A stretch of 64,000 nt of DNA from an uncultured Bacteroidales bacterium (GTDB lineage: Bacteria; Bacteroidota; Bacteroidia; Bacteroidales; Muribaculaceae), in the NCBI GenBank assembly GCA_949289215.1, contig CASENC010000049.1:62001-126000 (forward strand), given 5' to 3'. The notes under the pieces were generated by a model. It was given only the letters and a program-made list of their open reading frames with translations, was not told where the DNA came from and ran no database searches. Position numbers and translations under genes: made by a program. Within the stretch, counting starts at the first letter, position 1. Every line of letters starts with the position of its first letter. Positions 1-9,638 of this stretch are shown here, in pieces.

Positions 1-329
1 AGCAGCTGCTGGTCGTCGCTCATTACCACGTCGATTACGGCTCTGCCGTTAACTTTTTCTTCGATGGTTTTGTATCCAAGCGAAGAAAATACGATAGTGG
101 CATCAGTAGGAACGTTTTTTAAGGCATACTTTCCGTTGATGTCGGTTGCCACTCCGTTAGTAGTTCCTTTAACCATTACGGTGGCACCGATAACGGTTTC
201 TCCGGCCGCGTCGGTAACAGTTCCGCTCACCGTTTGCTGCGCAAACGCCGATGCAGAAGTAACCATCACGCCCAATAGGATCAACACGTGCCTGAGCAGG
301 CACTGTTTGGCTTGATTAATTTTTTTCAT
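1..329 (-). CDS. SusC/RagA-family TonB-linked outer membrane protein, N-terminal part only
   Basis: This is the first ~109 residues of a SusC-like nutrient porin; the rest lies beyond the left edge. The reading frame opens MKKINQAKQ, continues through a hydrophobic signal peptide ending near SASAFAQ, and then enters a carboxypeptidase-regulatory-like plug extension (QTVSGTVTDAAGETVIGATV, then GVATDINGKY and FSSLGYKT). That N-terminal beta-sandwich is the hallmark of SusC-type TonB-dependent transporters, which import glycans with a SusD lipoprotein. The start at 329 is the first ATG and leads straight into the signal peptide. A DUF6377-type regulator lies upstream on the same strand, a usual arrangement for a polysaccharide utilisation locus. 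Substrate cannot be told from this fragment. Confidence 0.93.
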   Translation of the reverse strand, partial: MKKINQAKQCLLRHVLILLGVMVTSASAFAQQTVSGTVTDAAGETVIGATVMVKGTTNGVATDINGKYALKNVPTDATIVFSSLGYKTIEEKVNGRAVIDVVMSDDQQL

Positions 330-574: not shown

Positions 575-2230
575 TTAAAACGATGCAATTTTCATTATTT
601 CATCGTCGAAATCCACAGGGCAGAGCGAACGTTTCTTGCGCTTGGAACGATAGGTGTAGATGGTGGTGATGGAACAACGCAAGAAACCGGCAATCTTGGC
701 ACTGTCGGTTATGCCGAGTCGGATAAGGGCGAACACACGCAACTCGGTGTTGAGTTTTTCGTCTTCTTTCAAGAGTATTTTGTCGCTTTCGGGAAGCAGG
801 TCGTTAAACCTGGCCACGAAATCGGGGAAAATATTTAGGAATGCCGTGTCGAATGCCTGATAAAACTCTTTGAGCGTGTTATTCACGATGCTGGTGGAGC
901 GCAAGGCCTTGTGCAAGTCTTCGCTGCGACCCGAGGCGGCATAGTGGTAAAGCATTTTGCGATACTGTTCGAGTGTGGATATATAATTGGAACACAATTC
1001 CATGAATTTGCCTATGTATTCCTCTTTGATGCAACTTGATTCCGAGAGTGCGGTGTTGGTGCTTTTGAGTGTGGCATTGGTTTGTTGCAACTCCTCGTTG
1101 AGTTTCAGCAGCTTGTCTTTCGTTATCGATACCAGGCGCAAACTGCGCGATACCGTTCTCAGTTGCTTAATGATGAAAAACACTGCCACCACAAGCCCCA
1201 CGGCCAATGCGCTGATTACCACAATGAGCCACTTTAGTTGCGATTGCATTTCTCGCTGTTTGGCTTCGTAAGCCCTGATTACCAGTGGCAAGATGTTTGC
1301 CGACTGGTTTTTGCGCATTCGTGCCGAAAAATAGTTGGCATCTTCCATGCTTTTCCTCAGGTAATGATAGGCATGGGAGACATCGCCGGCCTCAAACCTG
1401 AATTCGGCGAGTGCTCGCAGTGCCAGGTTCTCTTTCACCGACCCATGGATGTCGGAAATGGCACTTGATGCCATATAATATTCGCATTTGTCGATGTTGC
1501 CTTCAAGTTGGTACACATAGGCTATCAATGATGCAATGACCGAGTATTCCCTTGTTCCGAAATTGTAATTTTCAAGACTTCGGGTAAAGAAATCGGCTGC
1601 TTCTTGCCGCCTGCCAAGCTGGATTAATCGCGACCCGTATTCGGTTTCATAGATAAAACTGTCGGGAGCTGACATTGCCAGCACCGAATCCCTGTATGCT
1701 GTTATCTTGGTTTGATAATCATGTATATACTCGCTGCCGTCGGCATACTCGGCCATATATTGGTAAGTGGTGCCGCATATTTGGTAATAATTGTCTTTGA
1801 TGTCGTCGGGGAGGGTACGGGAGTCTATTCCTGAGAGTATTTTAAGTGCCTCGGTGAAAATGCCTGCTTTTGCAACCAGGTCGGCTTTTTCGATAAGCGA
1901 CATCATAAGCCATTCTTTGTCGCCTGCATCTCGGGCTTGGGAAATGTTGGCATTTATGTAATGCAGAGCCGAGTCGCACACAAACGATTTATATTCAAGA
2001 AACAGCAGTCTGTTTAATTCAAATTCGCGCTCGGGCGTAGAGGCTGTTGCAAGCAAACGATTCAAGCTGTCGATGCGTGCGATTTTCACACGGTCATATT
2101 CCGCACTGTTTGCTATGGTATCGTCGAGCCGTTCCATGAGCGGCATTTCATTGTTGTCACCGCAGCTTTGAAGCAATACGGCAATAAAACATACCAAACA
2201 GAACTTTATATCATACGAACAAGCTTTCAT
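575..2230 (-). CDS. DUF6377-type regulator with TPR-like sensor, one membrane segment and C-terminal HTH
   Basis: This 551-residue protein begins with a lipoprotein-like signal (VLLQSCGDN). A helical, TPR-like region follows to about residue 330, then one strong transmembrane segment (WLIVVISALAVGLVVAVFF, about 335-355), a coiled-coil stretch rich in L/N/T/S, and a C-terminal region ending in a helix-turn-helix-like segment (LRVFALIRLGITDSAKIAGF then TTIYTYRSKRKKR). This is the architecture of the DUF6377 regulators that often sit beside susC/susD loci in Bacteroidetes. It probably senses a signal at the membrane and controls the downstream SusC-like gene on the same strand. Its own upstream region carries paired inverted repeats around a TAATTTTG element, so expression may be phase variable. 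Ligand unknown. Confidence 0.8.
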   Translation of the reverse strand: MKACSYDIKFCLVCFIAVLLQSCGDNNEMPLMERLDDTIANSAEYDRVKIARIDSLNRLLATASTPEREFELNRLLFLEYKSFVCDSALHYINANISQARDAGDKEWLMMSLIEKADLVAKAGIFTEALKILSGIDSRTLPDDIKDNYYQICGTTYQYMAEYADGSEYIHDYQTKITAYRDSVLAMSAPDSFIYETEYGSRLIQLGRRQEAADFFTRSLENYNFGTREYSVIASLIAYVYQLEGNIDKCEYYMASSAISDIHGSVKENLALRALAEFRFEAGDVSHAYHYLRKSMEDANYFSARMRKNQSANILPLVIRAYEAKQREMQSQLKWLIVVISALAVGLVVAVFFIIKQLRTVSRSLRLVSITKDKLLKLNEELQQTNATLKSTNTALSESSCIKEEYIGKFMELCSNYISTLEQYRKMLYHYAASGRSEDLHKALRSTSIVNNTLKEFYQAFDTAFLNIFPDFVARFNDLLPESDKILLKEDEKLNTELRVFALIRLGITDSAKIAGFLRCSITTIYTYRSKRKKRSLCPVDFDDEIMKIASF

Positions 2231-2268: not shown

Positions 2269-2297
2269 CAATCTGTCTCTTGGGAAGAGACAGATTG
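2269..2297 (+). repeat. Left inverted repeat (candidate recombination site) of a putative invertible promoter
   Basis: This 29-bp site has perfect 13-bp arms, CAATCTGTCTCTT and AAGAGACAGATTG, around the asymmetric centre GGG. The reverse complement matches the site at 2445-2473 at 26 of 29 positions, and the centre there reads CCC. Palindromic arms with an orientation-setting core, present twice in opposite orientation, is the layout of site-specific inversion sites. It lies 39 bp upstream of the regulator start. Confidence 0.65.
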
Positions 2298-2444
2298 GTT
2301 AGCTACAAAATTAGTTAAAATATTGATTTATATTATAATCAGCCAACCTGTTTTTGCATATTCGGCAGAAAACGCCTTGTCATAATTGCTTTTATTTTAC
2401 AATTTTATGCCGATATTATGCTGTAAGTCATGATATTGCTGTTA
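2298..2444. promoter_or_regulatory. Putative invertible promoter segment upstream of the DUF6377-type regulator
   Basis: This AT-rich ~147-bp spacer lies between the two inverted repeats. On the minus strand it holds TAATTTTG (2313 to 2306), which fits the Bacteroidetes -7 consensus TAnnTTTG and points at the regulator start at 2230. I see no good -33 TTG at 19-21 bp, so the promoter is only partly supported. Inversion would turn the element to face the 3' end of tamL and would be expected to switch the regulator off. No recombinase gene is present in the window. Confidence 0.5.
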
Positions 2445-2473
2445 CAATTCGTCTCTTCCCAAGAGACAGATTA
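2445..2473 (-). repeat. Right inverted repeat (candidate recombination site)
   Basis: The partner of the site at 2269-2297. It has the core GTCTCTT-CCC-AAGAGAC and continues with AGATTA. Outer bases CAATTC (2445-2450) and GAATTG (2474-2479) form a further inverted pair. Relative to the left site it is inverted, as shown by CCC against GGG at the centre. A terminator for tamL is an alternative reading, but there is no T-run after the hairpin on the minus strand. Confidence 0.6.
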
Positions 2474-2514
2474 GAATTGGGTATGAAATTATTGGGATGC
2501 CTGTTGTCAATCGT

Positions 2515-4818
2515 TCAGAACGGGTAGCCTATGGCAAGGTGGAAGGCAAGGCTGTCTTTGAATGAAGTCATATTATAGTAGCCGCTGCGCCCGGTTTCGT
2601 AGGGGGCATGGATGCCTATGCCAAGGTCGGCACGCAACACCAGCACGTCCATGTCGAAGCGCAGGCCTATGCCGGTGCCCACAGCTACGTCATTAAGGAA
2701 ATTGCGAGCAGTGAGTTGCGAACCCGGGCGTTGCTCGTCTTCCTGCAGCAGCCACACATTGCCCATGTCGAGGAACACTGCACCATGCAGAAACCCGAGA
2801 ATGGGAAAACGGTATTCGGCATTCAATTCAAGTTTGAATGTACCCGTTTGGTCGTAATATCCGTTGGCTGTACCATCGGAGTGGTAGCTGCCCGGACCTA
2901 TCGAACGCACGGCAAAGGCTCTCACCGAGTTGGCCCCGCCTATGTAGAATTGTTCGGCATAAGGCACTTCGGCCGAGTTCCCATAAGCGTGTTCCGCCCC
3001 TATGAATGCGCGTGCCACAATGGAGTGCCCCGATAGCACCTTGCGCGTGTATATGAGTTGAGCCTGCGCCTTGACGAATTGGGAGAAAGGTGTTCCGAAA
3101 AGTTCTTTGGTTCCGGCTCCGCCGTGTTGCCCGGCAAGGGCCCATATCCCCGAAAATATGTTTCCGGCTTCCGACACGGTGAACGTGAAATTAAAACTGT
3201 TGCGGCGGTCGATGGCACGGTCGAGCGTGTAGGTATAGCTCATCATGGGGATGAATTGGTCGCTGAAACTGTTTTCCACTGCACGGTTCTGCGAGATTAT
3301 CGAATCGAATGCGGTTGTGTGGCTGAGCAACTTGGTATATGACAACTTGAACGGCGTGAACGAACTCGACGAATAACGGTTGGTGTGCCATTCCCATGTG
3401 AATCCGGTTGACAATTGTACCATCTTGAAGTAACTGGGGCGGTTGAGCAAGTCGGCCGAGAGGTTGAATTTTGTCCAATTGATATATCGGCGGCTGCGGT
3501 CGATAAAGCGTGGTGCAAGCAGCCGCGGCACGGCAAGCGTGAAGTCAAGTCCCACTTCATAACTGTTAAGGCGTTGCTCGCTGCCGCTGCCGGTCATCCA
3601 TTCATAGGAACCGTTGATTTGAGTGGTAAGCAATTCGCCACCGCCGAAAACGTTTTTGTGTGTCAATCCAAACACAGCGGCGGGTCCTATGTAGCTGTTG
3701 GATTTTGATGCGGCTTGTATTTCAAATTTGGCTTCAAGCGGCATATCAAGCACACACTCGATGTTAACATCGATGGTGTCGCTTGTCACCGAGTCGAGCG
3801 GCGTGGTATTGATGGTCACGCTGCTGAAGATGCCCATGCGCGACAGGTTGTCTTGCGTCTGCTCGATGGTGCGCACCGAGAATGTGCGCCCCTTGCGCAA
3901 CGTGAGGCATGAAGGTATCAAGTGGTCTTTCATTTTCAGCGGCATATATTTTATTATGCGTCCGCTGCGGCGTGTTTCGAGCGTGTCGGGGGTGCCTTGC
4001 TTGTGAAAATCTTTTACTACTGTTTCCACGTTGCCTATGTAATATTTCCTTTTGGCAGCCGTCGGCATATTGTCGGCAAGGCGCATTTTCACCACCACGC
4101 TGTCGGGTATAAGTATGCTGTCGGCAAGGTATTCGATGTATTCGGGGCGGAAGAAGTAGTATCCGCGGTTTCGCAGGCGGTTGGTGATATTGATGCGCAA
4201 CACGTCGAGCGAGTCGGTGCAGTATCGGCTGCCCGGGTGCAGGTAGTGGCTGCGGCGGGCAAGCGAGTCGATGAACTGTTCCACCGGCGAAGTGCCGCCT
4301 GTGAGCATTACACGCGCCAGTACACGTGGTGTGGTGAGGTTGACTGTATAGTTTATGCGGGCTTTCTTGTGGTTGTCCTTGTCATATTCAAGTTCATAGG
4401 CAGCCTTGGAGCCGAAGTATCCGTTGTTTTCGAGCGTAGTGTTAATCATTTCCACACGCAACTCGGGGCGCACGTCGGAAATAAGTACCGGTTCGGCAAC
4501 AAGTTTCTCGTATATCCAGTGCTTGAACCCCTTGGTGGCAGTGTTGTCCCAATGGTTATACACCCATAGCCCGAGGGGGAACGGGTGGCGTATGTAAGGT
4601 GAATAAAGGCTGTTGTTGGGCTTCACGTTGATGGTCGTGAATACCTGGTCTTCCACACTGCCTATTATTTCTTCCCCTTCGGGTGCGTTATAGGTAATGT
4701 GGTTCACGCCGGTGTAAAGCACCTCGTCGTCGGCAAGGCGGCTGGTGGTGGAACAGCCCGACAGTGCCAGCAGTGCGGCAATCCATATGGTGATATGTGC
4801 TATAAATTGTTTCATCAT
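2515..4818 (-). CDS. tamL: TamL: BamA/TamA-like outer membrane lipoprotein
   Basis: This 767-residue outer membrane protein starts with a lipoprotein signal (LLALSGCSTTSRL). An N-terminal half with POTRA-like segments follows (for example VNHITYNAPEG and LARVMLTGG), and the C-terminal half is rich in amphipathic beta strands, including YIGGANSVRAFAVRSIGPG and GTGIGLRFDMDVLVLRADLG, typical of BamA/TamA surface-antigen barrels. It ends in an aromatic residue (IGYPF). In Bacteroidetes the lipoprotein TamA homologue is called TamL and works with TamB in outer-membrane biogenesis. Its ATG overlaps the stop of tamB by four bases, so the two are translated as a unit. The length suits a TamL protein. 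Confidence 0.85.
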   Translation of the reverse strand: MMKQFIAHITIWIAALLALSGCSTTSRLADDEVLYTGVNHITYNAPEGEEIIGSVEDQVFTTINVKPNNSLYSPYIRHPFPLGLWVYNHWDNTATKGFKHWIYEKLVAEPVLISDVRPELRVEMINTTLENNGYFGSKAAYELEYDKDNHKKARINYTVNLTTPRVLARVMLTGGTSPVEQFIDSLARRSHYLHPGSRYCTDSLDVLRINITNRLRNRGYYFFRPEYIEYLADSILIPDSVVVKMRLADNMPTAAKRKYYIGNVETVVKDFHKQGTPDTLETRRSGRIIKYMPLKMKDHLIPSCLTLRKGRTFSVRTIEQTQDNLSRMGIFSSVTINTTPLDSVTSDTIDVNIECVLDMPLEAKFEIQAASKSNSYIGPAAVFGLTHKNVFGGGELLTTQINGSYEWMTGSGSEQRLNSYEVGLDFTLAVPRLLAPRFIDRSRRYINWTKFNLSADLLNRPSYFKMVQLSTGFTWEWHTNRYSSSSFTPFKLSYTKLLSHTTAFDSIISQNRAVENSFSDQFIPMMSYTYTLDRAIDRRNSFNFTFTVSEAGNIFSGIWALAGQHGGAGTKELFGTPFSQFVKAQAQLIYTRKVLSGHSIVARAFIGAEHAYGNSAEVPYAEQFYIGGANSVRAFAVRSIGPGSYHSDGTANGYYDQTGTFKLELNAEYRFPILGFLHGAVFLDMGNVWLLQEDEQRPGSQLTARNFLNDVAVGTGIGLRFDMDVLVLRADLGIGIHAPYETGRSGYYNMTSFKDSLAFHLAIGYPF

Positions 4819-7800
4819 TGGTCATTCGTCGTTGTGGTGTCGTTTTCTTCTTCTTTTTTGGCTTCGGGCTTGTCGGTAGTCGGCGTGTCGTTGCGACGCG
4901 GACGGCCGAAGTTGAACAGGTATCGCAATTTCGGTAGCTTGCGGCTGATTACGAAACCGACACCGGTCTGCGTTACTTCACCTTCAAGGATACTCTCGTA
5001 GCCCGACTTGTTGAACAGCCGCACATACATGCTTCCGCTGGGCGTAAGTGCGTATTCCAGCGACACATCGTTGAACAGGCTTTGCGCAATTTCGTTTTCG
5101 CCCGTCATGTCGGGACTGTAGTTGCCGCCGACAACTATCTTGAAGCGGTCGTTGAAAAGCGACTTGGATACCTGGTAGCTGTAGCGCATGGTGGATGAAG
5201 TCACGCCATCTACCGTCTGGTCATATTGGTCAATGCCAAACGACAAATCTATGCCCTTGATATTATTGGCTGCCCAGGAGTTAAGCTTTGATTGCAAGAA
5301 AGAGTAGAGCTGGTTGCTTGCAAGGTTGCTCGACGCCGATGTGCCGGGTCCGGTATATGTACCGTAAAGCAGCAGGTTCATGGCTTGTGCGCTGCGTTGA
5401 GTTTGTGACATCGATTGCAGTTCGTTTTGCACTGTCACGTCGCTATTGGTTGAGAGGTCGAATTGCACGTCCATGTCGCTCAATGTGTTGGTTGCCGACA
5501 ACGAAATCAGGAAGTCCACAAGCCTGGAATCTTGCCCTTCCTGCGTCACGTTGGCTTTTGTGGTTTGCACGGCGGTAAGGTTCAGCACCGGGTTCATTAT
5601 TTCCCCGTTGAACTGAATGAAGCTGCCTTCCTTGAAGTTGAACAGTACTTGCGATATGAGTGGCGGATTGTAACGCACAAAACCATTGTTGATGGTGTAA
5701 CGTCCGGTCATGGTCATGTCGCCGAGCCGGTTGAGCGCAAATGTGAGGTTGCCGCTTCCTTCGATTTCGGCACGGTCCGAGCCGTTGTTGCTCAGGAACA
5801 CATTCACGTGCGATCCTTGCATTATATTGAGTCGCGCTGTCAGGTTCATGCTGCTTGTGGTGGCAGCTTGCAGCGAATCGCTCTTGACGTATGTGGTGGA
5901 ATCGCTGAATTGCACAAATGTCACTAATTGTTCGCTGTTTTGCTGTGTGAGGGTGTTCACATCGGTAGGCATGACATATGTGATGTTGGTTCCCGATAAT
6001 ATCGACACCGTTGCGTCGAGGTCGAGGTCGTTCATGGTGCCGCGCATGGTTGCATCGAGGTTGGCAAATCCGCGCCCGAAGAGTTCGGCCTTTTTGGTTT
6101 GGTTGCTGTTGACAAATTGCACATTTTGCCCGTGTATGGCAAGGTCAACCCCCATGTTGGCAATGTCGTTCATATCTACGGTGCCGTTTATCACAAGCGG
6201 ATTGTCGTTGAGCATCTTGATGGAATAATCGTCGAATCGTATCACGCTCGAATCTATCGGGATTTGCTTGCTTGGCAAATTGACCGAAGTGCTGAACACC
6301 GGTACATTGACATATGTCGAGTCGCATTGCAAGTACCCGTTGAGCAACGGCAACCCCGAACTGCCCGATACTGTCATCATTCCATTTAGGTATCCCGTGG
6401 TATTAAGCACATTTGGCGGCATGAACGGGTTGGCTATCGACAAGGGGAAGCGGTCGAGTTCAATCCACAGGTCGTATGCGTTGGTTGTGGCTGTGTCGTT
6501 TATTGCGCCATATGCAATGAGCGATTGCCGTCCGTTGACTTCAAGAGCGGCGGCTATGTTGGTTCCTCCGGTTTGCGGGTCAAGGTCGATAAGTGAATTC
6601 AAGGTGAAGTCACCCACACGTTTCTTGTTGAAATAGAAATTGTTGAAATTCACCACACCGTCGCCCCACAGGCTTTCGCCGTTGAATTTCACCTTGAGCG
6701 ACACTCCCAGTTCTCCCTTCATGGGCGGAGCAAGCGGGGAGAATGTGAGCCAGTCGCTTATCTGTACCTTCGATATGTCGAGCAAAATATCTTCTTGTAC
6801 ACCGGTGCTGTCGCCTGTTTCCACGTGCTTGGTGGTAAGCGAAACCACGCTTGAATCGCATTGCAGGCGCATATCGGCATCGAAGTGTCGGTTACGGTAA
6901 TTATATGATATGTGATTGTCCTTGTTGATGAGCCATCGCTTGTAACCTATTATAGGGTCTTCGGGGATAAGTTTCAACAACACATTTGCCGTGTCCATGG
7001 TTACATCTATGCCGAAGCGTACCCCGATGCTGTCGTTGAAGTCATATTGCCGCAGCAGCACTGTGGCACGGTTCCCGGCAATTATGCCCAGCAATCCGGC
7101 CGAGGCGATGCCGGTTCCATTACGGTTGTCACGGTTGGCAGCGTGCAGCAGGTAGCTTATGCGGCGGTTGCGTTCGGTGGCATACATCCGCACCGTGTCG
7201 ATGGTCAACCCGCTTGCAGTGAGGCGGTCTATGTCGCCGGTCATGCGGAAAGTGCTGTCTTTGGTTACATTGAAACGCATATCGTTAAATTCCACGCCGC
7301 TGCTCTCCAGGAATTGGCTTGCAAGGTTCTTCTTACCCACTTTGATGCTGCAATCGAATTGCGGCATCACGTCGCGCAAGGTGTCGGCATCTATAACAAG
7401 CCTTTCGGCTTGCTCGGCAGCCAATGCGCCGGTCCGGGAAAAGCCTGCAAGCAACGAGTCGATGCCGCAAGGCGATTTCAACGAGAGTGTCATGTCGCCG
7501 TTTGCGATGTTGCCTGTGGTGTGTGTTGAATCGCTTGAAAAATCCATATCTATGGCATCGGCGTAATAATAAGCCTCGTCCATGGTCCAGCCAAGGTCTT
7601 TAATGCCGAGTTTGCCGCTGTATTTCCCGCTTGCAAGATCTATTGTGCCATCGCAAGTGATGTCGGCGTGTCCGTACATGGCCGTTTCCGACATTTCAAG
7701 GCGTTGCAGGTCGATGTTCTCTATGTAGGCCTGTAATTTCACGTCATAAGCATCGGGTGCAATTGTGCCGTATGCCCCGAGCGAAAGGTTAAGCACATCG

Positions 7801-9638
7801 TTTTGTGACAATAAGTTAGAGGAAAAATGGCCGTTGCTTAACCGTGCTGCAAGCCTTATGTCATGGTAATTTTCTTTGCCGAATTCAAAATCGTCGATTT
7901 TCACGTAAGCATTGATCGACGTTTCGGGGTCGAACATATCCAATCCATGGCCTTGCGCATTTATTGCTGCTGTCAGCAGCCCCAAGTCGCTCAGCGGCAG
8001 TAATGCCTTGAGTGGCAACGAGTCGGCCTGCAATGAAATATTATAGTCGGTGGTGCGGCCGGCCCAATCGGCATCGAGGGCTGCGTGCCCCGATGGCAAT
8101 GCAAGAGTCAAAGTGCCTTTTACATCTTCGCCACGCATTTTCACTCGGCCTTCCAACTTGAGAGGTGGAAAGTTTACAGCCGCTTGTTGCTCGGCTTCGA
8201 GCATTGAGGGCTTGATAAAATTGATGTTCTTGAAATCTCCGTTTAAATCCAGGTTTAAGGCCAATTTGTCGGGCGACATGGGATTTTCAACATCTCCCGT
8301 TACCGATACCGATGCGTAGCGCGGCAGTGCAACCGTGCAAGTATTTACCGATAGGCGGCTTGCCGTTCCGGCTGCATTTATGCGTGCTTCGAGCGGGCGG
8401 TATTGCGGTATCATCGACAACACAGGAGCAAGTTCGGGCATTGCACGTTGAATCTCGGCAAGGCCCACTTCGGCATCAAGGTCAATGTTGATTTTTCCCG
8501 ACGGGTTGCCTGTAAGGAAATCGTTGCTGACATATCCCTCGGCGCTCAACTGCGACAGCAGTGTGGAGACATAGAACCCGTCGATGGTCATGCCGCGGTC
8601 GTCCATGGCAAATGTACCCAAGGCCTCAAGCACCCGCAATCCGCTGCGTTCGTCGGCTGTGAATTGCTTGATGGGAACGCGTATTTCCGTGCCGCGGTTA
8701 TACAGGCTGTCGATGGCAATGTTTACGTTGCTTGCTTGCAAATAATTCATGTCGAGACCTTCAACTGCCGGTGTGGCTCCACGCATGGCATATGTTCCTC
8801 CTGCCCGTGTGAGCCGCACGGCCGTACAGTGTATTTCCCATGGGGCCGATGTCACGCTGTCGGGTTCGGCTGCGGCAATGCTGTCGGCCGGGTGTGCCGC
8901 CAAGTATTCGGCAGACGGTGTGAAATATGCTCCTTGCAGGCTATCGACGGCAAGTAACCGAGCATCGATTTGTTGTGAACCGAGGTCGATAACGGCACTG
9001 TCAAGCGAAGCCCGGCCTATTTCCACACCAAGGCTGTCGATAACCGGCATCATTGCCATTGTGTAGCGTATTTTTTCAAGCGATACATTGCCCACTGTAA
9101 TTTTGAATGGCGACGTTGCCGCAGTGTCGGTCGGCGCAGGTTGTGCTTTGTCGTTGAAAAGGTCGAGGTTTACGTCGCCGCCGTGCATCAATGCCTTGCG
9201 CACGTCGAGCGACCCCGAGGCAAGGTCGTATTTCACTCCGTCGATGTCGATGAGTTCCACACGGGCGGTGAGCAACATCGATGAGTCGGCACTCGTCATG
9301 CCATATTTGGCATTTTCCAATCGTGCTCCGCGCATGACGACTTCCCCATGCAGCAACGGTTTCAGCCGTACACCTGTAGTGAGGTTGACAGCTGAGATTA
9401 TTGTGTCGCCGTGGTCGATTATGTTTACATCGTCGATGCGCAGCTTTAATGGGAATTGCAGCCTCATCATGCCCACTTGTACCTGCCAACCTGTGGCTTT
9501 GGATACTTGTGTGACTGCAATATCCTTTATGGCATCTTGAATAAACGGCACGTAAAGCATTGCCAGAATTAAAACCACAATCCCGACTATTGATGCAATC
9601 GTCCACAGTAGTATTTTCCCTATCCCCTTGATTTTCAA
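4815..9638 (-). CDS. tamB: TamB: translocation/assembly module, large periplasmic AsmA-like protein
   Basis: This 1607-residue protein has one N-terminal membrane anchor (ILLWTIASIVGIVVLILAMLY). A very long, beta-rich repetitive body with AsmA-like pieces follows, and a C-terminal TamB/DUF490 domain (about residues 1200-1580) with strands such as GNLTFALNRLGDMTMTGRYT and FQFNGEIMNP-like segments. TamB bridges the inner and outer membranes and, with its TamA-type partner, supports outer-membrane lipid or protein transport. It lies directly before tamL with a 4-bp overlap, the conserved pairing in this phylum. The tail is acidic and low in complexity (KPEAKKEEENDTTTTN). The start at 9638 gives a proper anchor directly. 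Confidence 0.9.
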   Translation of the reverse strand: MKIKGIGKILLWTIASIVGIVVLILAMLYVPFIQDAIKDIAVTQVSKATGWQVQVGMMRLQFPLKLRIDDVNIIDHGDTIISAVNLTTGVRLKPLLHGEVVMRGARLENAKYGMTSADSSMLLTARVELIDIDGVKYDLASGSLDVRKALMHGGDVNLDLFNDKAQPAPTDTAATSPFKITVGNVSLEKIRYTMAMMPVIDSLGVEIGRASLDSAVIDLGSQQIDARLLAVDSLQGAYFTPSAEYLAAHPADSIAAAEPDSVTSAPWEIHCTAVRLTRAGGTYAMRGATPAVEGLDMNYLQASNVNIAIDSLYNRGTEIRVPIKQFTADERSGLRVLEALGTFAMDDRGMTIDGFYVSTLLSQLSAEGYVSNDFLTGNPSGKINIDLDAEVGLAEIQRAMPELAPVLSMIPQYRPLEARINAAGTASRLSVNTCTVALPRYASVSVTGDVENPMSPDKLALNLDLNGDFKNINFIKPSMLEAEQQAAVNFPPLKLEGRVKMRGEDVKGTLTLALPSGHAALDADWAGRTTDYNISLQADSLPLKALLPLSDLGLLTAAINAQGHGLDMFDPETSINAYVKIDDFEFGKENYHDIRLAARLSNGHFSSNLLSQNDVLNLSLGAYGTIAPDAYDVKLQAYIENIDLQRLEMSETAMYGHADITCDGTIDLASGKYSGKLGIKDLGWTMDEAYYYADAIDMDFSSDSTHTTGNIANGDMTLSLKSPCGIDSLLAGFSRTGALAAEQAERLVIDADTLRDVMPQFDCSIKVGKKNLASQFLESSGVEFNDMRFNVTKDSTFRMTGDIDRLTASGLTIDTVRMYATERNRRISYLLHAANRDNRNGTGIASAGLLGIIAGNRATVLLRQYDFNDSIGVRFGIDVTMDTANVLLKLIPEDPIIGYKRWLINKDNHISYNYRNRHFDADMRLQCDSSVVSLTTKHVETGDSTGVQEDILLDISKVQISDWLTFSPLAPPMKGELGVSLKVKFNGESLWGDGVVNFNNFYFNKKRVGDFTLNSLIDLDPQTGGTNIAAALEVNGRQSLIAYGAINDTATTNAYDLWIELDRFPLSIANPFMPPNVLNTTGYLNGMMTVSGSSGLPLLNGYLQCDSTYVNVPVFSTSVNLPSKQIPIDSSVIRFDDYSIKMLNDNPLVINGTVDMNDIANMGVDLAIHGQNVQFVNSNQTKKAELFGRGFANLDATMRGTMNDLDLDATVSILSGTNITYVMPTDVNTLTQQNSEQLVTFVQFSDSTTYVKSDSLQAATTSSMNLTARLNIMQGSHVNVFLSNNGSDRAEIEGSGNLTFALNRLGDMTMTGRYTINNGFVRYNPPLISQVLFNFKEGSFIQFNGEIMNPVLNLTAVQTTKANVTQEGQDSRLVDFLISLSATNTLSDMDVQFDLSTNSDVTVQNELQSMSQTQRSAQAMNLLLYGTYTGPGTSASSNLASNQLYSFLQSKLNSWAANNIKGIDLSFGIDQYDQTVDGVTSSTMRYSYQVSKSLFNDRFKIVVGGNYSPDMTGENEIAQSLFNDVSLEYALTPSGSMYVRLFNKSGYESILEGEVTQTGVGFVISRKLPKLRYLFNFGRPRRNDTPTTDKPEAKKEEENDTTTTNDQ

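Follow-up and report, generated by a model that had tools for sequence, protein, structure and literature searches.

A putative invertible promoter before a SusR-family regulator gene, and a related class of inversion sites, in Muribaculaceae

Introduction

Glycan sensing in gut Bacteroidota has its textbook model in the SusR regulator and its sus locus. The sus locus is induced by maltose-type sugars, and in Bacteroides thetaiotaomicron susR transcript levels were reported to be comparable between conditions (PMC11633381). Invertible promoters and other DNA inversions are also established in Bacteroidales, among them inversions that serve SusC/SusD loci, capsules and exopolysaccharide, together with the master invertases Mpi, Tsr0667 and Tsr19 (PMC12632263, PMC4747536), as are invertases lying beside promoter invertons (PMC11892184, PMC8748976). 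The tyrosine invertase Tsr19 (BF2766) of Bacteroides fragilis flips promoter segments that are bounded by inverted repeats, one of them close to its own gene and another distant, and downstream transcription depends on the orientation (PMC4747536). Tsr0667 of the same species is described as causing shufflon-type inversions at three SusC/SusD clusters, one enzyme serving several regions (PMC4747536), while Mpi is a global invertase flipping the promoters of several capsule loci (PMC12632263). In a defined gut community, promoter invertons of Bacteroidota were sorted by the motif of their inverted repeats and associated with tyrosine recombinases, in an account whose main text does not mention Muribaculaceae (PMC11892184).

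Here we analyse a 64-kb stretch of an uncultured Muribaculaceae genome, referred to as the window, which belongs to contig G000:C49 of a draft genome (G000) that is 85% complete. The window very probably contains a Bacteroidales invertible promoter (inverton) in front of a SusR-family regulator gene, as judged from its sequence and that of related genomes. The type of switch is already known in Bacteroidales; the SusR regulator is an unusual target. Among the matches listed in literature searches that covered few subscription papers, neither an invertible promoter before susR nor the site class CNGTCTC-N7-GAGACNG was seen; the site class may coincide with one of the inverton groups already described (PMC11892184). 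The locus resembles the Tsr19 system in combining a tyrosine recombinase, here a candidate, with a promoter segment between inverted repeats, but what the promoter serves is a SusR-type regulator, and no invertible segment was found beside the gene of the candidate enzyme. With Tsr0667 it shares a DNA inversion bearing on SusC/SusD outer-membrane loci; the difference is that a simple two-site promoter flip is predicted here, in front of the gene for the regulator of a starch-type locus. Furthermore, the regulator belongs to the same family (NF058541) as SusR of B. thetaiotaomicron and likewise stands beside susC/susD/amylase/GH97-type genes (PMC11633381), whereas here the regulator's own promoter appears to be invertible.

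An inverted site pair around a promoter-like box before susR

Two palindromic sites in inverted orientation were proposed for this region by the initial annotation, and this is borne out, with the corrections that site B ends at 2472 rather than 2473 and that the match is 26 of 28 nucleotides (93% complementary), not 26 of 29. Site A is a perfect 13+3+13 palindrome, the two sites are 147 nt apart, and the spacer of site B is the exact reverse complement of that of site A (Table 1). Allowing at most two mismatches, two copies of the core are present in the 64-kb window where 0.01 would be expected, and 0 of 100 shuffles contained two. The pair thus has the form described for invertons, in which inverted repeats of 10-40 nt surround an intervening segment (PMC11892184). 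Read as probable tyrosine-recombinase sites, A and B each consist of arms close to ATCYGTCTC / GAGACRGAT around a 7-bp spacer.

The segment between them carries, as was also claimed initially, a -7 element aimed at the regulator gene. It is the single match in the interior, on the minus strand only, to TAnnTTTG, the -7 consensus for Bacteroides (PMC7366714), so that the segment holds a Bacteroidota-type promoter as far as the -7 box is concerned; no clear example of a -33 element was seen. A sigma-70-type scan of positions 2100-2700 returned three promoter-like sites where 1.3 would be expected; one lies within the interior and likewise faces susR. These matches were given no weight because the consensus scanned is not that of Bacteroidota.

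The gene downstream encodes a 551-aa product that was first annotated as a DUF6377-type regulator. It does match PF19904 (DUF6377) and is more precisely a member of NCBIfam NF058541, 'SusR family glycan utilization regulator', scoring 540.4 bits against a cut-off of 480. The SusC-type gene said to follow it is indeed present, its start lying at window position 329. On the same strand 3' of susR, mostly outside the window (G000:C49:50000-62700, locus L155), there are genes for SusC, a SusD-family protein, CBM26, a GH13 amylase and GH97, and by this predicted gene content the adjoining locus is a starch-type sus locus. Its SusD-family protein reaches only 120.7 bits against the 725 of NF033071 and is not the B. 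thetaiotaomicron-type SusD itself. The SusC, SusD-family, CBM26, GH13 and GH97 genes are all kept beside susR in two other genomes of the genus, G006 and G001.

Table 1 Features of the putative switch, further site pairs of the same class, and recombinase loci with their own site pairs
Feature	Location	Strand	Remarks
susC-type gene start, first gene of the starch-type locus running beyond the window	1..329	-	SusC, TIGR04056
SusR-family glycan utilization regulator, gene under the putative switch	575..2230	-	PF19904 DUF6377; NF058541
Putative recombination site A, SusR-proximal, perfect palindromic arms	2269..2297	+	CAATCTGTCTCTTGGGAAGAGACAGATTG; 7-bp asymmetric spacer TTGGGAA at 2280-2286
Putative invertible interior, 147 bp	2298..2444	.	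opposite orientation in G006:C12, 139/147 bases identical
-7 promoter element, ON orientation towards SusR	2306..2313	-	TAATTTTG; TAnnTTTG match
Putative recombination site B, Omp85-proximal, inverted relative to A	2445..2472	-	CAATTCGTCTCTTCCCAAGAGACAGATT; spacer TTCCCAA at 2456-2462
Omp85/POTRA outer-membrane protein gene	2515..4818	-	3' end adjoins the switch; conserved flank by which orientation was judged
TamB-type gene, upstream neighbour	4815..9638	-	present also in G006, G001, G003
Site pair before susR	G000 and G006
Site pair between two divergent UpxY-led capsule operons	G006:C3, L165 6546-6754		with promoter box
Site pair before UpxY gene	G001:C3
Site pair before AraC-type regulator	G006:C13
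Site pair before 182-aa gene lacking a family match and a lipoprotein-like gene scoring just below its cut-off	G006:C41
Site pair between sulfatase gene and divergent 632-aa gene	G004:C15
Recombinase loci with own downstream site pair	L094, L095, L107, L109, L111, L119-L121, L123, L125, L127, L128, L130

Orientation of the interior in related genomes

We searched 61 genomes, the window's own included, with the 284-bp intergenic region as query. Outside its own genome the whole region was matched in one genome, G006 of the same genus; a third genome, G048, gave a match of 30 bases only. In G006, one strand matches the interior and its sites (query 41-242) at 94% and the other strand matches the flanks, and the interior alone, so similar to that of the window in one orientation, agrees at no more than 67 of 147 bases in the other. 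The inverted interior lies between the same genes as in the window. Flipped in silico, it aligns with G000 from end to end with scattered substitutions and no gaps except one end base. The promoter of G006 is directed away from susR, and no TAnnTTTG points towards that gene. Compared by eye, the arms on the flank side keep to the flanks and the arms on the interior side move with the interior; the crossover is therefore placed in the spacer. Both orientations are thus seen between two separate draft genomes of the genus. The initial annotation had proposed a site-specific inversion switch, which could turn a SusC-type glycan locus on and off through its regulator; the inversion reading is supported by the G006 interval, which is inverted and ends at the two sites.

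In G001, G003 and G004 the Omp85 and susR genes stand in the same order and the sites are absent from that region. These orthologues have, at the corresponding position, a promoter-like stretch towards susR, ATATTTT...TAATTTTG in G003 and G004 or TAACTTTG in G001, and for this reason an ancestral fixed promoter appears to have become enclosed by sites in the G000/G006 lineage. Between Omp85 and susR, G004 (L034) shows different, repetitive inverted repeats, TAGGAATGTGGAAT / ATTCCACATTCCTA.

We also scanned upstream of SusR/DUF6377 genes at 41 loci (30 plus the best 11 of 30 further loci), 39 of which gave a protein match; these include a repeat of the window's gene (L188), one locus without upstream DNA (L055) and three with short upstream stretches (L037, L181 and L182). 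Among the 39 matches, this site pair is confined to the window's gene and the orthologous gene of G006. Weak one-mismatch matches at L036 (two) and L045 (one) were taken as chance, their own shuffles matching in 1 of 5 and 0 of 5 cases.

Distribution of the site class

The form CNGTCTC-N7-GAGACNG, which allows any spacer and was searched in nine genomes of the genus only, occurred 3 times in G000, 5 times in G001, 8 times in G006 and twice in G004; it was absent from the other five, and the reversed control pattern from all nine. Of 297 family genomes sampled evenly from a larger group, 3 contained a stricter TTNNNAA form, CNGTCTCTTNNNAAGAGACNG; all three are of this genus, and the reverse-pattern control gave no hit.

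Seven two-site pairs were found by arm pattern with at most three mismatches and any spacer allowed (Table 1). They are not independent, as two species contribute the SusR pair and probably the capsule locus as well, and correspond to about five independent loci. Two of their 14 sites, site B of the window and the second site of G001:C3, fail the strict CNGTCTC-N7-GAGACNG pattern. Within all seven pairs the spacers are exactly inverted, as the inversion design would have it, and they are equal in 0 of 42 cross-locus comparisons. Furthermore, TAnnTTTG lies on one strand only in 7/7 interiors, with one copy ending 8-10 bp before a site; for each interior, 15 to 29 of 2000 dinucleotide shuffles placed this motif 7-10 bp from an end. 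As in the Mpi system, the class also stands before capsule loci. At the G006:C3 pair, between divergent capsule operons, flipping would select one capsule or the other and would not act as an ON/OFF switch.

Several sites fall outside the seven pairs, namely a cluster (G000:C49:180860 / G001:C12), a single G001:C11 site, which by eye has an apparent partner with a damaged centre, and a single G000:C21 site. The G001:C12 cluster (L018 1398-1859) has four sites in two nested matched pairs, the outer with TGCGTAA/TTACGCA and the inner with TGCGCAA/TTGCGCA spacers. Its G000 counterpart (G000:C49:180860-181221, L160 8861-9222) has three sites with spacers TGCGCAA, TGCGCAA and TTACGCA, not all matched, and seems to have lost one 103-bp unit. 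This multi-site cluster has a ROK gene on one side and, on the other, a locus comprising a SusC-type gene and the gene for a GH18-like protein that scores under its cut-off. At G000:C21 (L168 10413-10433) the contig ends 122 bp past the lone site, inside the would-be invertible segment, which is perhaps an assembly break from mixed orientations.

Candidate recombinases

Mpi is a serine recombinase. No match to PF00239 (serine recombinase) was found in the window's own genome, 85% complete, with controls positive in 10 of 14 genomes, and a serine invertase was rejected for now. In this respect the locus differs from an Mpi regulon, and the result is consistent with the initial view that the repeat is not of the Mpi type. 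On the other hand, the same genome has seven matches to the tyrosine recombinase family PF00589.

Forty recombinase loci were taken over the genus, of which 28 entered a tree (quick method, no bootstrap) and 12 were left out as unlike or partial; G006:C3:125117, G000:C31:32103 and the Xer-type matches are not in it. One clade comprises 20 recombinases, 11 of them with a local site pair (four by eye or by single-site matches). Within it, an orphan subclade with a support of 99 unites six members without a local pair, G000:C18, G006:C25, G001:C4, G007:C1, G004:C2 and G008:C21; G006:C25 and G001:C4 are 99% and 78% identical to the G000:C18 orphan. A local pair thus accompanies 11 of the 14 other clade members, against none in the few kb around the orphan and each of its five orthologues, so the Tsr19-type arrangement of an invertible segment beside the invertase gene is not seen for the orphan. 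Around three orphan-subclade genes no CNGTCTC-type pair was present in 19 kb; there was one unlike inverted repeat (L161 3477/3684).

Orthologues of the orphan (at least 70% identity) occur in 6 of the 9 genus genomes, and sites in 4 of those 6 and in 0 of the other 3. The orphan appears to be the only clade member with an orthologue found in all four site-bearing genomes. This co-occurrence of recombinase and sites is only suggestive, because G007 and G008 have an orthologue and lack the CNGTCTC-N7-GAGACNG site. We regard the orphan tyrosine recombinase at G000:C18:29908-30882 as the best candidate enzyme for the switch, and a moderately probable one.

Further recombinases of the same class are encoded at G000:C31 (twice, one at C31:32103), C35 and C38 and at G006:C6, with a partial one at G006:C3:125117. 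A real switch might instead be served by another enzyme, for example of the G006:C6 / G001:C26 type, or by more than one, which is possible although somewhat doubtful. The G001:C26-type recombinase has a similar local pair in G001, including by eye TTGTCTC-TTGGCAA-GAGATAA, and G006 has an orthologue of it (71%), but none was found in G000 (85% complete), where the nearest protein is about 46% identical.

Discussion

We propose that a site-specific recombinase, probably of the tyrosine type, would bind the palindromic arms and that strand exchange within the 7-bp spacer would flip the 147-bp interior. In the window orientation (ON), the TAATTTTG promoter would transcribe the SusR-family regulator, which would then allow induction of the starch-type susC/susD/amylase/GH97 locus beside it. 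With the G006 orientation (OFF), the promoter would face away and leave the starch locus silent or poorly inducible. The sites with their matched spacers, the inverted orientation in a relative, the -7 box with its position and the gene identities are observed directly; reversible flipping in a population, its ON/OFF effect on transcription and the enzyme are what we infer. Transcription in the ON orientation would start almost at the site, which would give the mRNA a strong hairpin at its 5' end, and the OFF orientation would direct antisense transcription into the 3' end of the Omp85 gene (window 2445-4818), with a possible effect on the Omp85-TamB pair.

An ancient inversion that became fixed between two species, the sites being remnants and no switch being active, would also account for the two orientations, and one genome per species was compared. 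We consider it improbable. Both spacers differ together between the two genomes, TTGGCAA / TTGCCAA in G006 against TTGGGAA / TTCCCAA in G000, a joint change that would be expected if the two sites continue strand exchange and for which continued exchange is the simplest explanation; moreover, exactly matched pairs are kept at several other G006 loci and in G001 and G004.

Reading the palindromes as a terminator (the Omp85-side copy) and a 5' mRNA leader hairpin (the SusR-side copy) finds some favour in the strong fold of the SusR-side site near the predicted ON transcript start (-25.4 kcal/mol in a 121-nt stretch, z -3.46), and the site may act as a leader hairpin in addition to its part in the switch. 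As a replacement for the switch it is highly unlikely: no T run follows either stem and a terminator scan returned nothing there, by which the terminator reading was ruled out, and it leaves unexplained the exactly inverted spacers, the inverted G006 interior and the placing around promoter boxes. A plain terminator had been named at the outset as the finding that would speak against inversion; that objection falls, the sites being mainly inverted pairs that enclose promoter-like boxes. A mobile element of the MITE kind, bounded by terminal inverted repeats of 28 bp and inserted upstream of susR, would suit the absence of sites from the orthologous loci of G001, G003 and G004 but is scarcely credible, as the search of 61 draft genomes gave a long match to the interior at the orthologous G006 locus alone and not at several places, the other G006 match (C41) spans a site only, and the promoter motif of the interior is present at the same place in the site-free orthologues.

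If the promoter flips before susR, starch use would become a coin-toss trait laid over sensing, and some cells would be unresponsive to starch. We tentatively suggest, as a serious but uncertain possibility, that one orphan master tyrosine invertase, with targets limited to a few species of the genus, might flip the promoters of susR, capsule, AraC, sulfatase and other loci, through a common arm (ATCYGTCTC) and a locus-private 7-bp spacer serving as address, and that it might couple starch use and capsule choice in bet-hedging. If this is true, pairs would recombine only with themselves and the chromosome would not be scrambled. The locus-specific spacers hint at a way in which many inversion sites could be served by a single enzyme without scrambling of the chromosome. 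About five loci of this site class lend themselves directly to the study of one recombinase.

Many recombinases of the genus have an inverted pair of their own just 3' of the stop codon (Table 1), with differing outer arms and mostly on an RTCTC-N7-GAGAY plan, and one group has GTTA-type arms in its local pair. These recombinases form a natural set for following recombinase-site co-evolution.
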